Source: Odiellus spinosus (Eukaryota; Arthropoda; Arachnida; Opiliones; Phalangiidae). From it: a stretch of DNA of 64,000 nt. A model generated the notes under the pieces. The model saw only the letters and a program-made list of their open reading frames with translations. It was not told where the DNA came from and ran no database searches. Below are positions 20,308 through 57,700 of this stretch, piece by piece. The DNA is taken from NCBI GenBank assembly GCA_963920705.1, contig OY987227.1:9837602-9901601 (forward strand), given 5' to 3'. Made by a program: the position numbers and the translations under genes. Each line of letters opens with the position of its first letter. Positions within the stretch are counted from its first letter, which is position 1.

Positions 20308-22007
20308 ATGGCGTCGTACGTACAAAATATGTGGTCGACGGTAAAGCCTCTCGTAGCGGGAATATGCGGTCGAAACGAAGACAACGAAAGATTACATTTC
20401 GCCAAGTACGGACACGGTCAAGGCGACACGGAACTGTCTTCCACAAGACGAAGGTCAGGCTCACAAGTGGACGAACACGAAACCGGCTACGGAGCCGAAG
20501 GAGAATTCGGAAAGGAACGGATATCGGAGTGGCAAGCCGGATGGAACGTTACCAACGCCATTCAGGTAAATAATCGACGACGAAAGTTGCGTGGTTCGAA
20601 GCTCCTAACTGGTCGTTTTTCTTCCAGGGTATGTTTATAGTCAGTCTACCGTACGCGGTACTGCACGGCGGATACTGGGGCGTCTTCGCCCTGGTCTTCG
20701 TCTCGTATATTTGCTGTCACACGGGCAAAATCCTGGTGGCTTGCCTGTACGAACCGAACGAGAGAGGAGAAATGGTACGAGTTCGCAACTCGTACGTGGG
20801 GATCGCGGAGATCTGTTTGGGAGAGCGATGGGGAGGCAAAGTAGTCAACATCGCGCAAATTATCGAACTGCTGATGACGTGCATCTTGTACGTGGTACTC
20901 TGCGGAGACCTAATGATCGGCTCGTTTCCGGAAGGGCCCATCGACCAGCGATCCTGGATGATGATCTCTACTATGTTCTTGCTCCCCTGCGCCTTCCTGC
21001 GCCACTTGCACGCCGTTTCTCTCCTGAGTTTCTGGTGCACGGTCGCTCACATCCTCATCAACGTCGTCGTCCTCGGATATTGCCTGACCAGAGCCGGCGA
21101 TTGGCTCTGGGGGAAAGTGCAGTTTCGTATCGACATCCACATGTTTCCCGTCACCCTCGGAATCGTCGTCTTCAGCTACACCTCGCAAATATTCTTGCCC
21201 ACCCTAGAGGGCAACATGAGTGACAAATCCCGCTTCGAGTGCATGCTCAACTGGAGTCACGTGGCCGCCGCCATCTTCAAAGGACTCTTTGCTTACGTCG
21301 GCTTCCTCACCTGGGGCGAACAGACCCAAGAAGTCATCACGAACAACCTACCGACCCAAGGATTCAAAGTCATCGTCAACTTGACCCTGGTCCTCAAAGC
21401 CCTACTCTCTTACCCCCTGCCCTACTTCGCCGCTATCGGACTGCTGGAATCCGCCTTCTTCGAACCTCCGCCCAGCGTCGTAAAGAGACGAGAAGAAGAA
21501 CTACAACGGGAAAGGGAAAGAGCCGAAATGGAACGCGAAAACTGGGACGCCTCGTCCGCCGAAACCAGAGAAGCGGAAAACGTCGTCGACCCGACGCGCT
21601 TTCCGCCACCCATCGCGGAAGGAGCGCCCAAGGGAAACTGGACCTTCGGAAAAAGCCTCTTTCCCTCGTGCATCGCCATGGATGGCGACCTGCGCATTTG
21701 GGCCGTGGCCCTCCGAGTTTTGATGGTCATCTTCATCACTTTGATGGCCATGTCCATCCCGCACTTCGCCCTCTTAATGGGCTTGATCGGCAGCTTCACG
21801 GGCACCATGTTATCCTTCGTCTGGCCTTGTTACTTTCACATGAAGTTAAAATGGCATCAAATGCAATGGTACAGCATATCGTGGGAGATATTCATCATGA
21901 CCCTCGGTATCTTTTGCGGAATCAGCGGCTTCTACAATTCCGCCTCGGCTTTGGTCGAAGCCTACCACATCCCCTTACCGTACGTTAAACCTCACCCGGA
22001 ATCGTAG
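20308..22007 (+). CDS. VIAAT: Vesicular inhibitory amino acid transporter (VIAAT/VGAT, SLC32 family)
   Basis: Loads GABA and glycine into synaptic vesicles in exchange for protons (family knowledge). Two exons, 20,308-20,565 and 20,628-22,007, are split by a 62-bp intron with donor CAG|GTAAAT and acceptor TTCCAG|G. The joined frame gives 545 residues; the vertebrate protein has about 525. The join restores the family block WQAGWNVTNAIQ-GMF. Recognisable downstream blocks are GKILVACLYE, NIAQIIELLMTCILYVV, FSYTSQIFLPTLEGNM, EVITNNLPTQGF, ALLSYPLPYFAA and PHFALLMGLIGSFTG. The N-terminus (residues 1-75) is hydrophilic and presumably cytosolic, followed by about 9-10 hydrophobic segments. The start ATG sits in GCGGCGGCCATGG, a strong context. 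Unusual: residues about 365-427 form a charged, Arg/Glu-rich insertion absent from vertebrate VGAT. Codons are much richer in GC than the flanks. Complete. Confidence 0.97.
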
Positions 22008-23784: not shown

Positions 23785-24380
23785 TAGATAATTATCCGAG
23801 AAATTTAAAGGCAATTACCTAATTACACGCGAAATTTAAAGCTAATTACCCGAAAATTTTAAAGCCAATTACCTAATTACCCGAAAAATATAAAGGCTAT
23901 TACCCAATTACCCGAGAAATTAAGTCAATTACCTAATTACCCGAAAAATATAAAGGCTATTACCCAATTACCCGAGAAATTAAAAATCAATTACCCAATT
24001 ACCCGAGAAATTAAAAGTCAATTACCCAATTACCCGAGAAATTAGGTCAATTACCCAATTATGCGAGAAATTAGGTCAATTACCTAATTACCAGAAAAAT
24101 ATAAGGCCAATTACCTAATCACCCGAAAAATTTAAAACCAGTTACCTAATTACCTGAAATGTTTAAAGTCTATTACCTAACTACCCGAAAATTTTAAAGC
24201 CAATTACCTAATTACCCGAAAAATTTTAATATAATTACCTAATTACCCGAAAAATATAAAGGCAATTACCTAATTACCCGAAAAATAAAGGCAGTTACCC
24301 AATTACCCGAGAAATTAAAAGTCAATTACCCAATCACCCGAGAAATTAAGTCTATTACCTAATCACCAGAGATTTAAATA
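23785..24380. repeat. Minisatellite array, about 31-bp unit
   Basis: About 18-20 degenerate copies of a unit built from CAATTACC(T/C)AATTACCCGA followed by GAAAAAT or GAAATT and a short spacer (AAAGGC, AAAAGTC). Two subfamilies alternate: one with CGAAAAATATAAAGGC and one with CGAGAAATTAAAAGTC. Decayed units trail to about 24,540. Confidence 0.85.
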
Positions 24381-26620: not shown

Positions 26621-27750
26621 ATAATTAAAACGTTGAATGAAATTAAATAGGATATTATAATATAATAACCCCAAAAACAAAATTAAATAATCATGTTAAT
26701 CATAAAAATTACATTTTTTTGTTGTTAAAAAAATACAATTATTTTGAGTTTTATATGAAATTTAAAACTTCTATCAATGTATACGTAAAACCATAATGAA
26801 AACTTGAAATTGAATATTGGTTGAAAACTAAATAAAAAATTGTTTTAAACGTGTGCTTACGCTAGTTTTATAATTTAATTTAAGTATCATATACCATTGG
26901 GTTTTAACACTTAAATTTTGTCCGAGGAGACAGACTTTTGAAGCTTATTGACTTCTAGTCTGGGGTCAATATATTTTTACTATGATTGACGCTCAAAATT
27001 GGTTAGATATAATTTAAGATTTTAAATTAACCAATATTTAACGTTAATTTTAGCTACTGTATATCTGAGAGTAAAAGGAGGACGTCAGAGGTCGGCGACG
27101 TCAGCCGTTCATAGGTGTATACCTTAAAACTCGCCGACAACTAGCAAATTTGAAATTCAGTGAGTCAGAGGAAAACTATGAAGAGTCGACTTGGCGTAAA
27201 TCCGGTTCCGGTTGTCGTATGGGAAATTAAAAATAAATACCGGTAACTTTGTAAAATAAATGTGATGAAATTGGTGAATCTAGCTAAAGAAGAAAAGTAG
27301 GCCTGACACGAACATAATGGAATAACAAAATAATTTCCTATAGATTTGATCGAGGGATTAACCACTTTTGTAAGATATGTGGACCTACTACGTAATTAAG
27401 TAACAGACTACAGCCTTTGGAAATGCTAAATACGTACCTGAATATCGATAGTGTATAATGTTTATACCCGAGGGATCCGACACTCTTGAATTCGCTGTAC
27501 ATCTGAGTTCTCTTAGTTCAGTGTTGACAGTGCATTGAGTTCGAACTCTTATGAACTCTGTGTTCAGCTTTGAGAGTGCAAAGAGTGCAAATATTTTGTA
27601 CACCTGAGTACGCTATACCGAAGCTTCGTTTACTTTCAAATAAATAAAACATCCATCTTGATTATTAGCTCTCCGTTTATTTCGCACCTTTTTGGGGAAG
27701 GGCAGACAATTCTGAAACAATATACCATTTTTGCATTATTACCTTTAGCG

Positions 27751-27751
<1 letters not shown>

Positions 27752-27788
<37 letters not shown>

Positions 27789-28082
27789 CGGCGTGTAACG
27801 TAACGTCTTTACGCCCGGACAGCGGTCGCGATTGCGAACCAGGTGTGGCGCCAAGGCGTAAGGCCTTGAGCAACTCAGTTATGGTAAGTAACTACGCAGG
27901 GATTAGGACTGGGAATTGCCCACGCGACGGAAGGAGATGGGAATGGGGAAGAGGAAGGACCATTCCGTCGCGGACCATTCGCAACACTCCCTATGGGCAA
28001 GGGACCTGCGATTCGAGCAGGACAACACCCAGACCTTGCCACTGAGACGCCAGTTTACAGGAGTGCGCCACCACTCCCGGCT
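27752..28082 (-). mobile_element. SINE retroposon with 7SL RNA-like 5' end and poly(A) tail
   Basis: Read on the minus strand, a 294-bp body is followed by a 37-A tail (27,752-27,788). It is flanked by the direct repeat ACCTTTAGCGC at 27,741-27,751 and 28,083-28,093, which marks a retroposed insertion. The body starts AGCCGGGAGTGG, then TGGCGCACTCCTGTAAACTGG. By eye, about 21 of the first 27 bases from GCCGGG match human 7SL RNA. The stem GGAGTG/CACTCC, the TGTAA turn and a second hairpin ACTG...CAGT resemble the SRP Alu-domain fold. GCTCGAATCGC near base 70 resembles a pol III B box. The remaining 200 bp are unlike the SRP S domain. It is much richer in GC than the flanks. Confidence 0.8.
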
Positions 28083-28634
28083 ACCTTTAGCGCTGTAGCT
28101 GTTGTGAAAACTTGCCGTTCAACTTGGTTGAAAAGCTTGATGTGGTTAACGCGCGCGGAGATTTTTCAATGTACCGCCTTTCACCAATGAGAAGTAGTTA
28201 TTTTTGAACGTAGGTCAGAACTTCGAAGAGGGCATGCGCATATTGGAATACTAAAATCGTGTGTTATTATTTATTAAAGTTTAAAAATTTTATTGGGCTA
28301 TTTATGAGACACAACCAGTCTGAGAAATAAAACAGGTTTTCTGGTCAAAAACATGCTGTATGTGGAAGCAGTCAGACGTCATTGATCCAGAGAACTAGTT
28401 AAATTTAGATTTCTCAGACTGGACAGAACATCTCTGGAAATTAGGTTTAAGAATATACACAGAGGGATGCTAGCATTTAAGCCTAACCAGGAGCCCATCC
28501 GGTCACAAATAAAACTGCAATCATTCCGTACAGATTTCATGTTAGAGATTGCAAATATGAAGCCCGATCTTTAGAGATAATTTCCCAAAGAACCATCAAA
28601 TAGCGCCAAAAATACAACGAGTTAACGGAGTAGG

Positions 28635-43800: not shown

Positions 43801-45882
43801 CTAACATTGGCCGAGCCTGAAGCCTACATTGGCAACGGCGAAAATACCATTTCCACCAATTTTACGAACTTGCGCCGTAATGAAGAACTGAAAAGCGTGC
43901 AAATAATTAATTATGGATCCAGGTTTCTAACACGAATGTCCGACCCCTAGATTTCGATTAAAAGTCTTAGAGAAAATGTACTCACCCTTGGATCACCATC
44001 TTCTTCGTTAATCTCAGCGGAGAACGTCTTCCATTTAACTTCGCTCGTTTTGGTTTGGTAAATTTCATTAGTTCCCTTTTCCCCTTGCTTGAAGACGTCG
44101 AATAGGTAAACGTCATCGCCCTCCATTATGTAATCGAATGAAAAACATCCCTTTTCACGACCGTACAGGCTGTAGTGAGGGGTGATCAAACGCGCGCCGA
44201 TGCTGCCAGTCCTCCTGACGTCCAGTACCATCATGAAACCTTTTGAAATAATCCCGAATTATTAATAAGTTCATTTTACAGAACCTCAAATGATCGACAT
44301 GGATTCTATTTGACCGAAACCCAAATGATCGGAAAGGGGTCCATATGATCGAACCCCAAATTATCGACAAAGGAGTTCGTATGATCGAACCCCAAATGAT
44401 CAAATGATGAGTTCCATTTGATCGAACCAAATTCATGTCCATTTTTATCGATCCTCAAATGATAACAATAAAAGATCTTTAAGTTTCATCAAGTGTACCT
44501 TGCTTTCCAGCAATGTTGGCGTATCGCCGTTCAAAATCAGATCCCATGTTATCCTGATTAACAATCCCGCAGTCATCGTTATCGAAAGTGCACAGAAAAT
44601 CGGGTACATCCGGCGGTGGTGGTCGAACCTCCCCGTTACACTGGTACAGCCGATTGACCCTCCTTACGTCACTTTCGCTTAAACCATCTTTCTTCCAAAC
44701 GGGTCCGATGACTTTTCCTTCTTGCAGGACCTTAACGGTGGGTGAAACGCCGTCTTTCGAGAAAGCCTCTTCTTCGTACAACATGATGGACTTGTAATCG
44801 AAATTTTCGCCCAAAAGGTTGTGTTCGTAGTACTTCATCTTGTTGAACCATTCCTGGTAACCGTCCAAGATGTTGTCCCATAAGATTTCGATGTAAGCGT
44901 CGCGGTCAGACCTCTGTTGCTCGTGGTAGAAACCAATAGCATGGCCGAATTCGTGGACAACTAAACCTTTCCAGTGGCAACCGGTACCCAAGGACATGTA
45001 CTGCTTACCGCCCACACGACCAACCATTGACCAACAACTAATTTAACGAATCAGGAATGTTTGTAATAAAAATATTGGAATAATTGTCTTTGGTTTTAAA
45101 GTGGAGTAGGGAAGGGTATCAACCATGACCTATATTGTAATTTTTCATATCGACCAATCACATTTGCATATGATTTGGTTTTTGACTTAATATATTTGAT
45201 ACAACAGTTCTGAACGCAAACATTTGAAGGACGTTAACAAATTTTACACCAATTTCTACGCCAATGATAAGAAGTGAAATCAAAGATAATTGGAACCAAC
45301 CTACCCGCTATACCATCCTACTTCAATGTAATCTGGTACTTGGCCGGGTTCAACTTCGACGAAACGTAGGCAAGTCTTTTGATGGTATTCTTCGAGACCA
45401 GCAAGAATGTATTCCCTGATGACCTCTGATACGCAAAACAACGTTAGACCTTGCAGCAAAAAACTACGAATTTAAATACAATCCCTTACTCGCGCTTTCT
45501 CCAATATAATAATAGACAATTCCATCTTTCCAGAGTTTTTTGGAGTCCACAATGGAGTTATAAGACTAAAATTAGGTTACAAGTTGGGGAATCGATAATT
45601 TATCCCATAAAATCGATTTAATTTATCACTGACCTCTGAGGGGTTTACTACCATATCACCTCCGAACAAACCTTAAATAAAAGTTTTAATTATTAATGTT
45701 AATTAAGGCTAAATTAAATAATACCTTTGTTATATAAAGGAGCATCTCCGGAGAATGATACAGGACCTATAAATAATAATCTTGTATTTGTTGATTAAAA
45801 TTCAAATGGTCAATTAAATACGTTTACCAGCGTTGGCCAAGTAGAGTAAGGAAAAAACCAGGGCAGCTGAAAACGTTGCCAT
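43801..45882 (-). CDS. Astacin-family zinc metalloprotease with MAM domain, copy A
   Basis: Secreted zinc endopeptidase of the astacin/meprin family. Eight exons: 45,828-45,882; 45,725-45,766; 45,634-45,671; 45,490-45,565; 45,305-45,425; 44,499-45,037; 43,986-44,239; 43,801-43,887. All junctions are GT-AG, and the total of 1,212 nt encodes 403 residues. In order: signal peptide (1-18, MATFSAALVFSLLYLANA); a very short propeptide with LFGGD, the form of the FxGD aspartate switch that blocks zinc; the catalytic domain with KTCLRF, GCWSMVGRVGGKQ, zinc site [12 protein letters not shown], Met-turn SIMLYEE and final LYQC; then a proline-rich linker and one MAM domain (LCTFDNDDCG through FRLGQC). 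The Met-turn has Leu where most astacins have His (SxMHY); the Tyr zinc ligand is kept. The MAM end reads IFAVANVGF where the usual form is IAIDDI. Starts 283 bp downstream of copy B's stop. Complete. Confidence 0.96.
44245..44460. repeat. Degenerate tandem repeat inside a copy A intron
   Basis: ATGATCGAACCCCAAATGAT-like units of about 36 bp recur (near 44,290, 44,345, 44,380 and 44,420), filling most of the intron between exons 6 and 7 of copy A. Confidence 0.7.
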
Positions 45883-46164: not shown

Positions 46165-49100
46165 TTAAGGACATTTTTGGTATTTGAAAGAAATGTTATC
46201 AATGGCCAAAATACCATCGCCTCCTAAGTCGGTGAAGTACAGCGATAAGAAGAACTTTAAAAGTAATTGAAGTGAAAGTAATTAGCTCACATTAATTACA
46301 CCTGAATTTAAAGGTATAGCATCATACCTTGACTTCCTGTTGGTCACCGGACACTTCGACCGAAGCGGTCCTCCACTTATCACTCTTTTGTCTTTCGTCA
46401 AGAACATGGGTGGACTCTTCGGCCCACTTAATCATACTGATTTGATACACATCCTTTCCGTTCATGTAGAAATCGAAAGAGAAGCATCCAGCCTCACGGT
46501 CGTACATGGGATATACCGGTGTCGTGAAGGTCAAATAACTTTTGGTCACGTCTTTGGCGTCAGCTACCAAGACTGTGCCTTGAAAATTGTGACTTATATT
46601 TAAGATATTAATTTATAAATTAACGAAACGACAATCCATAAGAAATTTGTGTATAAAATTACTTTTTCGTCCTCCTAAGGTTCTGACTTCTCTGACGAAA
46701 CCATCTTGAGCCGCCTTTACTTCATATAAACAATGATCTTCTTCAAAATCGCAGTAAAAATCAGAGGCGATTGGTGGTTTAGGCCGAACTTGTCCGAAAC
46801 ATTGATAGAGTTTGTTTATTCGACGAATATCACTGTCGCTGAAGCCCGGCTTCTTCCATACGGGACCGATTACGACACCAGGTGTCTTAACTCGGATCGT
46901 GGTCGATTCTCCGTCTTTCGAAAATGACTTTTCGTCGTAAAGCATAATAGATTTGTAATCGAACTCTTCTCCCAAGAAATTATTCTCGTAGATTTGAAGC
47001 TTTTGAAATTGGGTTTCTTGACCTGAGAGTGAAATAGTTATGGTTGATCTTATTTGTCGATTGTGGGCCACTCACTAAAGATTGTAGCCCACTTTGCCTT
47101 ACTAAAGATTGTAGGCCTCTTTGCCTTAATAAAGATTGTAGGCCTCTTTGCCTTACTAAAGATTGTAGGCCTCTTTGCCTTACTAAAGATTGTAGGCCTC
47201 TTTGCCTTACTAAAGATTGTAGGCCTCTTTGCCTTACTAAAGATTGTAGGCCACTTTGCCTTACTAAAGATTGTAGGCCACTTTGCCTTACTAAAGATTG
47301 TAGGCCACTTTGCCTTACTAAAGATTGTAGGCCACTTTGCCTTACTAAAGATTGTAGGCCACTTTGCCTTACTAAAGATTGTAGGCCACTTTGCCTTACT
47401 AAAGATTGTAGGCCACTTTGCCTTACTAAAGATTGTAGGCCACTTTGCCTTACTAAAGATTGTAGGCCACTTTGCCTTACTAAAGATTGTAGGCCACTTT
47501 GCCTTACTAAAGATTGTAGGCCACTTTGCCTTACTAAAGATTGTAGGCCACTTTGCCTTACTAAAGATTGTAGGCCACTTTGCCTTACTAAAGATTGTAG
47601 GCCACTTTGCCTTACTAAAGATTGTAGGCCACTTTGCCTTACTAAAGACTGTAGGCCACTTTGCCTTACTAAAGATTGTAGGCCACTTTGCCTTACTAAA
47701 GATTGTAGGCCACTTTGCCTTACTAAAGATTGTAGGCCACTTTGCCTTACTAAAGATTGTAGGCCACTTTGCCTTACTAAAGATTGTAGGCCACTTTGCC
47801 TTACTTAGAGTTAAATCAAACTGATATGTGCCTTCATTCTGATATTCAAATTAAGCCCAAATCGTTTTAGGCATCATATTCGAGTTATTATACGTCGTCT
47901 ATTGAAGCTTAATCGGTTCCCGAAGCAGTTTGCAAAATCGATTCAAATCGATTCGAGAAAAAAAATGTTAAATTTAGCCGTGTTCACACTATATACTTTG
48001 AAACCGTTTTTAACCGTTTTAGAAAGGTCAAATTGTAAAGATAATTTCTCAAAATATATAAATATTATCTTGAAAAGTTGATCTGAAGATTCTGGCCTAT
48101 TGTGAAAGCGGCTTTAGTAATTCATCGCGCGGCGGCTTGTTGACCTCACCTTTCTTAATATTATTCCAGATAATTTCAATATAGTCATCCCTATCTGATC
48201 GGGAATGTTCGTGGAAGAGACCAATGGCGTGACCAAATTCGTGGATTACGAGACCTTTGTGGTGACAACCGTCTCCTAGCGACAATAGTTGAACACCACC
48301 CTTACGACCAACGTTAGACCAACATCTTAAAACGAAGAATTCGTGTCTAAATCAATTAGCAGTCCCGTTGTTTGAAACTGAAGATCGTATCTATATATAC
48401 CCATTTCCCCATTGAATACGTATGAAGTCTTTGATGTGAGTATCTTCCGGTTTCTTCTCAACAAATCGGAGGCATGTTTTCTCGTGGTACTCAGCAATGG
48501 CTTCTTCAATCTCTTCTCTGATGTATTCTAAAATACATATAGCATTATAGATGTGGACGTTCACGTACTCAAGGAGAAAAATAAATTTTCCATTACTCCA
48601 CTAAATGTCCCCTAACAATGAAAGAGTTAATTTTGCGTTTGATTACAATTTTGACCCTATTGTCTTAGTATCCCTTTAAAATCTGACATAATGTCACGTA
48701 TAGTATACCAGTGTATTGCGTGAGCTCGTAATAAACCACTCCTCCAGGCCAAAGTAATCTTGGGCTGACAACAGACGCCCTATCCTAAGTTAAAAGTTGT
48801 AAAACATTAAATATGGAATCGGCAGATACCTGCTTTATGCTGTGGTAAAGAATAATTGTAGAGATTAAACCACGTAATAGAAGAGAAAGAGAATATGTAA
48901 TATATTTAACATTTAAATACTTTTTTGAATATCTAAAAGGGATACCATAGGCTACGAGTAACAAGTTATTTTTAATCGATTAAGACTGTTCAAATACGCG
49001 TAATAATCGTATTAAAATTCACCCAAGGGTTCGCGGTAAATTACAGTTAATTATAAAAAGCAAGTGTTATTTCTAACCAAAACCTCTTTCAATTCAAGCA

Positions 49101-54728: not shown

Positions 54729-57700
54729 TGAGAGCATCACTTTAAACATTTTGGCGGAACGTACACAAACAAGATAATAATTCGTCCACAAAGTTACCTA
54801 ATGTCCGTCTAATGTTTCAAAATTGAGTCTATATTGTTATGTAAATTAGTACTATCTAACTTAGATTAGGTCTAATTCGTATCATTATGAGGGGAAATTA
54901 ACCGAAACCAAAATTAGGTCCATGCGAGATATGGTTGCGACCTGAAATTTTATGAAAATGGACCTAAAACGTCAATGTGGAAGAAAATTTTGTAATTAGG
55001 CCTAACATATTAATAAGGTGGGGAAGTAATTTAACTCAAAATTTGGCGGGAAACTTATGACGTTTTCTATTGAGAAACTTTTATCGCAACAAAGGTTCAA
55101 TGAAAATTGGAGACTGAAGTTACCGTCATTAAACATTTATGTTAAAGGGAGGGTGAAGACAAAAATGAAGTGTTTTGTTATTCTGTTTCTAAAAATAACT
55201 GGGGAAAATGTCAAATTTGTAAAATGAAAATTTGTCCTAACATATCATTATGGTGCGGAAATAATGAAAAATTAAAAATCATAACTCACACAAACAAGCA
55301 GCCGGCACGGTAGTGTTCCACTGTTGTCCGTCGACACAGTGCAAAGCCCTGGAGTTATCTAACGTATCGTTGAACAAATGTTCCTTGCAGCACATATAAA
55401 GGGCGTTGGTCCCGTTACGATAGACCATATACCCGTCTTTGGGTGGTGGTAGAGTCGGGCAGCCTCGTGCTATAGTACAATGAAATATCAGATAAGAAAA
55501 TGTATTAAACACGACTTATGGGCTAAACATTTCCGGGTTCCGAAGCCATACTTCCGAAAAGGAGAAAGCGACACTAAACTGAGGATTTAACTCCATTTAA
55601 GTAAGAAAGTGTTGCAAATTCAGAATGGAATGAATTCATTTTATGCCCGAGGGAGATTTCGCATCCTACAAACATATACTCCGTCTATAAAGGCTTAATT
55701 AAAACAATATAGTTCAAAAGCGAGGGGAAAGATTCTACCTAATTATTTCATTAAACGTATCTCTTTCCCATATAGCTTTCATTTTATTGCTTCTAAAGCT
55801 CTAAACCTAAAGTTCGCCTTTATGTTACAAAGTAAAGCGCAGCTCTGTCTAAAATCTTCGATTTTTAGACTATTTTGATGGAAGTCGTAAGCTATTTCGG
55901 TATAACCTTTGATTCCTATACGCGAATAAAACAACTGAACCAAAGTCAAGCTCTAGACAGTCCAATTACTAAAATGAAATAGTCCATATATTTTTGAAGA
56001 CTTGTATAGACTTTGGATGTTCGTCCCAGAAATTAAATTATAACTAAATAAATTCGATATGGACAAAATAAATTGAATATGGACAAAATCACGCGACACC
56101 GTTTTGATTTCAACGGAAATTTCATTCTGGGACGAATTACTCGGATTTATATCTAATATTGTAGTAAAAATGTAGTTCATTTCATAATGTATTATCAACG
56201 AAAACGGAGGGCGAGATAAAGTTACACTCAATCTCCGTTAACAACACATTCCGAGTCGAACTAAAAGACGTTTTTATACCTCGGTAATACAAAAGAAATC
56301 CTCTAAATGGCGAAAATCTTTCGGAATTGAAAATAACGAGGATAGAGTTTCCGGAACTCTCGTAAGTCTTCAAGGATTGCAGCGACTGTCCGCACGCGCT
56401 GACCAGTTTGGTCCCAGCGGCCGTCGGTCCGTCGTAGACTGATAGAGCTTCGTCGCAAACGTTTCGACCGTAATAGGGACGAGGCGGCCTCAAGTGATAG
56501 TCCAACAAGGCCATAGAAATGGTCTGGCCATCTCCGGCCGTGATATTCCAAGTGCAATTGACCAAACTGGGGTAGAAAGAAGGGTAACCGGGGGAAGAAA
56601 TGTAGCCTTCCGAAGGGGACGACGGGTAATTGCAGAAGCGAAGTATCGACGACTCTTTTTCCAACAAACAAAAAAGAAAAAAGAAAATAAATAAAATAGT
56701 ACGATATACGTGTATGTTAGGTTTACGCCAAGAAATGCAAACACGTACCAAGGCCCTATCAAGTCGCTTGATCTTTTAAAACCCTTCACTTCGTATACAT
56801 TCGCGAATATACCGCGAACAATCTCTTCAAAGATCGAGAAAAAAAATCGAAGACTCCTTTCATGACCAGGTTGTCTTTCCCTCCAAACATTTCCCGCCCA
56901 TTTTCCCTTCTGTCCCAGCGGCCTTTATTTGGCCGAAATCTATAGACTTAAAGGTCGCCGAGACGTATTACGAATCATTACCGAGAAATTGATGTCTTCT
57001 AATAATACGGGCACGTCACTAAACACATACACGAAGACAAATATATTTTTTAGGTTATTTTTCTCGGTCCACTATCGTATAACGATGACATGTCTCGGGA
57101 CCCAGAGAAATACAAGTAAGAATACGTAGCTATATAGCCCGGTTAGATAAACACAGTAATGTACCGTTGAAAATTATCTCCAGGCTTCTACACTATTCAA
57201 AATATATCCGTGAACGGGGTAACAACCTTATTAATGTTTTTAGTCCGCCCCAAGAGCTATTAAAAGCTGGGAAAAGTTGATATTTGCAGTGTTCACTATT
57301 CAACGTGACTATGGGAAACGTTAAGCCTAACTAATGGGCGTGTTTATAAGGGTCCAACAACGTATAAATCTGACAGTCTTAATTTGTTTTTTTTTTTTTA
57401 AATAAAACCGATGTGGAGATAGTTAAAAAACAATTTCGCGTTATTAGATTCTTAATTTGGGTACCAACTTGGAATATTAATGATTATTTCTAAGCACGAG
57501 GGAAAGATCGTTAATTTTGTCCAAAAAAAAAAAAAAAAAAAAAAAAAAAAACGCCAAAAAAAGTAGTAGTGACACTCTGCGTAATGAAAAAGGAAATAAT
57601 CATTCATTCGGCTTAATACGAAACGCAAGAAGTGTCGCTAGTGTTTTGAAGAATGAATTTAAACCTACTATTTCAAGACTAGAGGTTGTTGCCTCATTGA

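Follow-up and report, generated by a model that had tools for sequence, protein, structure and literature searches.

The success of Alu is tied to its front end, which derives from 7SL, a protein-targeting RNA, and it is an old question why SINEs with such heads succeeded in humans and mice and seemed nearly absent elsewhere. A short element in the genome of the arachnid Odiellus spinosus raises the question of whether an arthropod SINE, too, has a head that descends from 7SL. The element lies in a 64,000-nt stretch of DNA, the whole of which is called the window here, and an earlier note made from the letters of the sequence had described it as a SINE whose 5′ end looks like the Alu domain of SRP (7SL) RNA. 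Our answer is that the element is very probably a recently mobile arthropod SINE whose 48-nt 5′ head descends from 7SL RNA.

The element, its copies and its tails

The poly(A) tail and the target-site duplication that flank the SINE are both present in the sequence (Table 1). Read from 28081 to 27789, the element runs GCCGGGAGTGG...ACACGCCG and is followed by 37 A. Its limits had earlier been set by a duplication of 11 bp; the duplication is there, but it is 12 bp long, or 13 bp if an A possibly derived from the tail is counted. The 5′ boundary had likewise been placed one base too far out, as the leading A belongs to the duplication and the first element base is 28081, the start of GCCGGG. 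Alu also starts with GCCGGG. With no TTTT in the 293-bp element as read, a pol III transcript would need to run on into the flanking DNA before it ends.

Table 1 Features of the SINE and its insertion site; nt numbers count from the first base of the element
Feature	Position	Strand	Basis or remark
Source DNA, Odiellus spinosus	OY987227.1 9,837,602-9,901,601	forward	64,000-nt window
SINE, complete, 293 bp	27789..28081	-	sequence and copy comparison
Head, nt 1-48, probable 7SL-derived Alu 5′ domain (helices 2, 3, 4)	28034..28081	-	Rfam, alignment, fold, pair counts
Head features: U-turn TGTAA; loop-loop residues G13 G14 / C33 C36	within 28034..28081	-	
Helix-5-like stem, 5′ strand, nt 46-60	28022..28036	-	Rfam alignment, pair counts
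Helix-5-like stem, 3′ strand, nt 163-177, without sequence similarity to the 7SL 3′ end	27905..27919	-	
Box-B-like motif GCTCGAATCGC, nt 64-74	28008..28018	-	resemblance only
Body, nt 49-180, unlike 7SL	27902..28033	-	common to aligned subfamilies, deletions in some
3′ tail of subfamily A	27789..27901	-	copy comparison
Terminal 26-mer GGCGTAAAGACGTTACGTTACACGCC, can form a short hairpin	27790..27815	-	
Poly(A) tail, 37 nt	27752..27788	-	sequence
Target-site duplication, 5′ copy, GCGCTAAAGGTA, 12 bp	28082..28093	-	sequence
Target-site duplication, 3′ copy, GCGCTAAAGGTA, 12 bp	27740..27751	-	sequence

Copies were searched for in the whole genome (443 Mb in 286 contigs), and many copies fix both ends of the SINE. 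The 42 element matches listed are all 99–100% identical (40 of 419 candidates scored). All 22 copies compared begin with GCCGGGAGTGGT and 16 of them are identical over 293 bp, these 22 being the best matches of the element search and hence a biased sample. The 26-base end of the subfamily-A tail had 185 genome-wide matches with at most one mismatch, and its reversed control had 0. A 24-base head pattern was found at 308 places (166 + 142), against 0 for its reversed control; this pattern fits SINE and 7SL heads alike, and the 308 places include 7SL genes.

Within subfamily A, 16 of 43 copies of at least 250 bp, located in 41 loci, are identical to the window copy, and the median identity is 99.66% (lowest 90.1%), in a sample that leans to young copies as many were chosen as best matches. 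Target duplications of at least 9 nt (range 9–17 nt) were observed in 42 of the 57 copies examined and none was found in the other 15; their length is 12–15 nt in 34 of the 42. The elements are thus short, dispersed, A-tailed and flanked by target duplications, as SINEs are. Poly(A) tails, target duplications and dispersed near-identical copies are the marks of retrotransposition, and the window SINE is a recently mobile member of its family, young by copy identity.

The loci L061–L088 and L097–L119 have one type of head and body, together about 155–190 nt, and differing 3′ ends. At least four tails are found on the common body, namely tail A (that of the window copy), tail B (ending GGGTGCAAAAACATCCCTGTTACGCACCGTT), one with CTCAAGGCACCCACGAGGAGCCGCTGTAGCTC and one with CTCAAGGGCCCACTAGGGCGCCGCTGTAGCT, and there are also forms almost without a tail. 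Mixed forms occur as well, in which the body is B-like and the end A-like (L106 and L109). Given these several 3′ ends on a common head and body, the SINE lineage appears to be an old one that has diversified, and one of its subfamilies has been mobile recently.

Two clusters of copies were seen. Three SINE copies stand in direct succession at C8:20192498-20193489 (L017), with the same flank before each. Six SINE-type heads at C1:17770768-17832493 are spaced about 12–14 kb apart, and the two of these loci that were read (L086 and L087) have common flanks, which indicates that a larger unit was probably duplicated after SINE insertion.

Sequence and fold of the head

The Metazoa_SRP model of Rfam, run with Infernal in sensitive mode, matched the SINE from 28081 to 27903 with 43.4 bits, at an E value of 5.5e-10 for a 451-base stretch and 7.9e-8 in the scan of the whole window. 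The alignment spans helices 2–5, and the 64 kb contain no other Rfam match up to E 1; the 43.4 bits lie below the Metazoa_SRP gathering score of 70, and the scan of the window gave no match at gathering level. Among eight further loci scanned, L086, L071, L077, L073, L074 and L072 scored 37–45 bits against Metazoa_SRP and L079 scored 24.3.

The species’ own 7SL genes were found, with 26 matches scored of 2,761 candidates, at 202–228 bits; 24 of the 26 lie in a tandem array on contig C4 and two elsewhere. They align with the SINE head over 48 nt without gaps, the matching positions being 35 of 48 for an array gene, 35 for L030 (contig C6) and 36 for L029, compared with 24–25 for the next best place of the own 7SL heads in a gapless scan of 2 x 64 kb. 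Against the Rfam Metazoa_SRP consensus, 34 of 48 positions match. Within nt 1–27 of the head, the matches number 23 for the consensus, 24 for the array 7SL, 24 for L029 and 23 for L030. Shuffled 7SL heads reached the local score in 0 of 500 trials for each of the three 7SL genes. The 7SL-like 5′ end that the earlier note had proposed is thus borne out by the Rfam match, the gapless alignment and the shuffles.

Further into the element, 7SL positions 49–110 and the S domain matched the SINE body (nt 49–180) no better than shuffles did, and neither did the last 50 nt of 7SL when compared with the SINE 3′ strand. Whole 7SL compared with the SINE tail was not above shuffles for L029 and L031, with 45 of 500 for L030. 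As similarity is confined to nt 1–48 in these shuffle tests, only the 5′ domain is recognisably common to SINE and 7SL. The other 200 bp had been described as unlike SRP RNA, which holds for their sequence but less so for their pairing, as the 3′ strand still pairs as helix 5.

The array 7SL and the Rfam consensus differ at 12 of the 48 positions. At these 12, the SINE has its host’s type at six (7, 9, 18, 20, 34, 46), the Rfam type at five (3, 10, 17, 42, 48) and neither at one. The helix-3 pairs 7-20 (A7-U20) and 9-18 (U9-A18) are of the own-7SL type, and the more general type of the Rfam consensus is seen at pair 3-42 of helix 2 and at pair 10-17. The paired change that had been noticed in the first hairpin (GGAGTG with CACTCC) is therefore in part a feature of the host’s own 7SL, through A7-U20 and U9-A18, but follows it only partly. 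An excess of similarity to the own 7SL exists mainly through these two helix-3 pairs, the overall values being nearly equal (35–36 against 34 of 48). By this comparison, the head is not clearly closer overall to the own 7SL than to the Rfam consensus, the two being 1–2 of 48 positions apart, and an origin from an ancestral 7SL of the host’s lineage would fit best.

Base pairs were counted in 30 heads (six distinct 7SL, three other 7SL-type and 21 SINE heads); identical heads, the 5′-truncated L122, some further copies (e.g., L071, L080, L121, L123 and L124), L079 and L116 were left out. The pairs of the Alu 5′ domain are formed in 93.3% of cells, compared with 40–49% when the partners are slid. 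The covariation score is 0.252 against 0.118 in shuffles and was reached in 0 of 500, cells with both sides changed number 33 against 8.7, and pair types are no more numerous than in shuffles (234 of 500), all of these counts resting on few independent events as changes inherited together are counted many times.

Helix 4 has both-side changes at all four of its pairs and 98.3% of its cells are paired. It reads UCCA/UGGA in 7SL, ACUG/CAGU in the SINEs, AUCC/GGAU in L072 and CCUC/GAGG in L073 and L074. Pair 3-42 of helix 2 changes from U-A to C-G between 7SL and SINE. In the loops, pair 13-36 is formed in 27 of the 30 heads and pair 14-33 in all 30; both are presumably the counterparts of the loop-loop contacts of human SRP. 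L118 and L119 are the only heads compared in which the UGUAA turn varies.

The isolated 48-nt window head folds into the Alu 5′-domain structure, with a fold energy not more stable than that of shuffles (z -0.91); the own array 7SL head and the head of the L067-type unit described below, each taken alone, fold otherwise. RNAalifold, unaided, recovered helix 3, helix 4 and the inner part of helix 5 but missed helix 2. Across 24 SINE units, 92.2% of the cells of the 13 helix-5 pairs are formed. Within the SINEs, helix 5 shows weak covariation (score 0.074, compared with 0.069 for shuffles; 67 of 500), and cells with both sides changed number 10 against 5.3 shuffled (5 of 500). The pair counts and models show the SINE RNA to be capable of the fold that the SRP Alu domain has in its 5′ part. 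Its helix 4 differs from that of 7SL by changes that compensate each other and so preserve the helix.

Sources of the head and comparison with known SINEs

A head taken from a separate RNA gene with an Alu-domain fold, that is, a 7SL-derived paralogue of the BC200 or 4.5S kind, would make the SINEs descend from 7SL only indirectly, and we regard this source as possible, if doubtful. The L067-type unit has the look of such a gene. Six copies of it, 99–100% identical over 223 bp, were found on contigs C1, C4 and C5, the loci of this type being L067, L069, L083–L085 and L091–L096. The unit has the head, body and 3′ strand of the SINE and runs into CTCTTTTATTTTTTTATTATTTTTTTTT, which contains T-runs, without an A tail; the loop of its head, GCGACT, is that of the array 7SL. 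When L083 was scanned alone, it scored 33.1 bits over Metazoa_SRP model positions 1–44, but the unit was unlisted in the joint Rfam scan of eight loci. Three more loci (L072–L074) have 7SL-type heads with further helix-4 stems. Against a gene of its own, the unit sits in a longer repeat (L067 and L069 are 99.6% identical over 3,001 bp) and may have arisen as an old SINE insertion, for CGTAAGG stands on either side of it and looks like a decayed target duplication. The L067-type units may represent a 7SL-derived small RNA gene, either ancestral to the SINEs or derived from them, or else an old SINE that is a passenger of the longer repeat.

That the SINE came by horizontal transfer, from some other animal that has 7SL-derived SINEs, is improbable. 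Pairs 3-42 and 10-17 are nearer to the general metazoan consensus than to the host’s array 7SL, which is in its favor, but the two helix-3 pairs common to SINE and own 7SL argue against it, and the number of divergent subfamilies suggests that the SINE has been in its host for a long time. Viral contigs gave 0 matches to one exact 31-base head pattern, which says little.

Still less probable is a tRNA-derived head whose likeness to 7SL would be due to a pol III box A and chance. The box-B-like motif GCTCGAATCGC, a putative part of a pol III internal promoter, resembles box B of tRNA genes; however, no tRNA was listed by Rfam up to E 10 at the SINE stretch, ARAGORN found 0, and the likeness to 7SL begins precisely at the 5′ terminus, extends over 48 nt and includes helices that covary. 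A 5S-derived head was also considered and rejected, with no 5S match listed by Rfam up to E 10. An ordinary 7SL retrocopy or pseudogene is hardly credible. Small-RNA retrocopies are described as likewise ending in poly(A) (PMC7245038), but this element has no S domain and no 7SL past nt 48, and the same chimera recurs in the copies compared, in several subfamilies and with several tails.

The preferred reading, a mobile SINE whose head descends from 7SL, can be set beside known families. In the papers found, among them Kojima 2020 (PMC7245038), 7SL-derived SINEs are reported only from primates, rodents, their kin and hagfish. No other report of an invertebrate 7SL-derived SINE was found among the open-licence papers listed, and an entry in Repbase or Dfam may exist. 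As the reports found are restricted to those groups, the present SINE probably represents a further, independent origin. Petersen 2019 (PMC6327564) names “Alu” elements in 48 arthropod genomes on the basis of RepeatMasker labels and validates them by searching with a profile of AluJo. That study thus claims Alu-like elements in arthropods, and its passages on them describe no 7SL-headed chimera with a body of its own.

The hagfish SINE1-1_EBu is alike in having a 7SL head, no S domain and a foreign 3′ part, and also in the compensating changes that keep its Alu-domain fold, its youth and its origin outside mammals, as far as these are described in Kojima 2020 (PMC7245038). According to the same source, it comprises 96 bp of the 7SL 5′ part and a part like the 7SL 3′ end, compared with 48 nt only here, and it has 3′ AAC repeats, duplications of about 17 bp and an RTE partner. 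The window SINE differs by its poly(A) tail, duplications mostly of 12–15 bp and several tails.

Alu, B1 and FLAM (SINE1) have helices 2–4, the UGUAA turn and the poly(A) tail in common with the window SINE. Alu and B1 are described as 7SL sequence only, with regions 1–63, 76–83 and 267–299 common in Euarchontoglires (PMC7245038), whereas nothing in the window SINE is recognisable as 7SL after nt 48. SINE1 is defined there by a 7SL-derived head, the 3′ part being a shared feature of the mammalian families (PMC7245038). Here, the head is of 7SL type and helices 2–4, the loop-loop residues and the U-turn of the Alu domain are kept; the 3′ part of the 7SL Alu domain (about 267–299) is missing, and the strand that replaces it pairs as helix 5. 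By head and fold, we would place the SINE in the 7SL-headed kind, and as it is without the 7SL 3′ part of the mammalian and hagfish families, we call it a variant rather than a full match to SINE1. Descent from a FLAM-A/PB1-like ancestor, that is, from the Alu/B1 lineage, is very unlikely given the arthropod host and the different body and tails. SINEs with tRNA or 5S heads (SINE2 and SINE3), found in insects among others, resemble it in their chimeric build of head, body and interchangeable tail; their heads differ, as no tRNA or 5S match is listed for the window SINE.

We lean towards a third independent birth of 7SL SINEs, which would be the first known from an invertebrate. On this reading, a long-lived arthropod SINE lineage retained no more of 7SL than its 48-nt 5′ domain, rebuilt helix 4 by paired changes, made helix 5 from new sequence and swapped its tail several times. 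If true, this would be a natural deletion-and-repair experiment, indicating that the SRP9/14-binding fold, and not the 7SL sequence, is needed. An independent arthropod case, with its Alu 5′ domain reduced to a minimum and rebuilt, would set the features that are needed (the fold, the loop contacts and the U-turn) apart from those that are inherited. With copies that are nearly identical and may still move, the family would also be a tractable system. The case further raises the possibility that such elements have been labelled as unknown in the automatic annotation of repeats.

Proposed route of mobility and further features of the genome

The steps proposed from transcription to insertion follow known Alu biology as outlined in PMC7245038. 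Pol III would transcribe the SINE from an internal promoter, with the box-A region located in the 7SL-derived head and the box-B-like motif at nt 64–74. The transcript would fold as an Alu domain and, judging from the fold, may be bound by SRP9/14, which would hold the SINE RNA close to ribosomes, where it could be captured by the reverse transcriptase of a LINE as that enzyme is being made. Target-primed reverse transcription would then insert it into target sites starting with A. Recombination or template switching may have supplied the body and the interchangeable tails, and LINE 3′ ends are a possible source of the tails.

No partner LINE was found among the LINE stretches compared, which were few compared with the at least 150 reverse transcriptase matches listed. 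L126, L127 and the LINE of L120 share no more than 9 nt with tails A–D, the best exact piece being TTACACGCC (9 nt, E 0.43), and L127 shows only repeats. Of the 100 tail-A places listed, five without an exact head 24-mer, from the range that the list of head places covers (as far as part of C4), were checked and none of them is a LINE; four are SINEs with changed or partly missing heads, and one starts at nt 165 of the element (L125). An L1-type target (TTTT/AA) was tried and rejected: 29 of the 42 duplications start with AA, their leading A being indistinguishable from the tail, but the two preceding bases are not clearly TT, so no LINE clade is named.

Two of the LINE loci have features of their own. 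By eye, L126 (C2:26580050-26580950) reads as the 3′ end of a LINE with degenerate repeats behind it, in which TTAGG-like units abound, an arrangement reminiscent of telomere-directed elements. The LINE at L120:695-5728 has an endonuclease and a reverse transcriptase, with the RNase H encoded in a different frame. The frame upstream of these has no Pfam match, but zinc-knuckle-like motifs were seen in it by eye. This LINE adjoins the L067-type repeat, into which it is apparently inserted.

The 7SL genes at C4:16573823-16627040 (L031–L054, L089 and L090) form an interrupted tandem array, mostly with a 457-bp period, which contains 24 scored copies, 18 heads standing in a row in L090. In L089 and L090, 7SL is the sole Rfam family at gathering level. 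To our knowledge, a tandem arrangement is unusual for 7SL. The 7SL-type heads of L072, L073/L074 and L079 are without a full 7SL match, and L073 and L074 are related and lie 20 kb apart.

Contig C286 (16,074 bp) is the mitochondrial genome, read with code 5. ND2-COX1-COX2-ATP6-COX3-ND3 lie on one strand and ND4-ND4L on the other, with CYTB and ND1 on opposite strands. Nine of ten frames have Pfam matches, that of ND2 being to a general NADH-dehydrogenase/antiporter family, so that it is named by position. The remaining frame lies next to CYTB, at the place where one would look for ND6, and has no Pfam match. COX2 follows COX1 directly, with no room for a tRNA. We take this order to be the arthropod ground pattern without the tRNA-Leu insertion of insects and crustaceans, which makes a chelicerate or myriapod likely. 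Several nuclear COX1 pieces, some of them alike, occur on contig C17 (at 3.1 and 4.4 Mb and in smaller pieces); four contain TAG stops that are absent from the mitochondrial copy, and the pieces are likely nuclear copies of mitochondrial DNA.

Elsewhere in the window, two tandem repeats were seen, one with a 27-bp unit at 47074-47805 (27 copies, 99%) and one with a 31-bp unit at 23789-24372 (19 copies, 80%). Open frames match an amino acid transporter (Aa_trans) at 20631-22007 on the forward strand and, on the reverse strand, an astacin peptidase at 44479-45027 and a CUB domain at 56182-56751.
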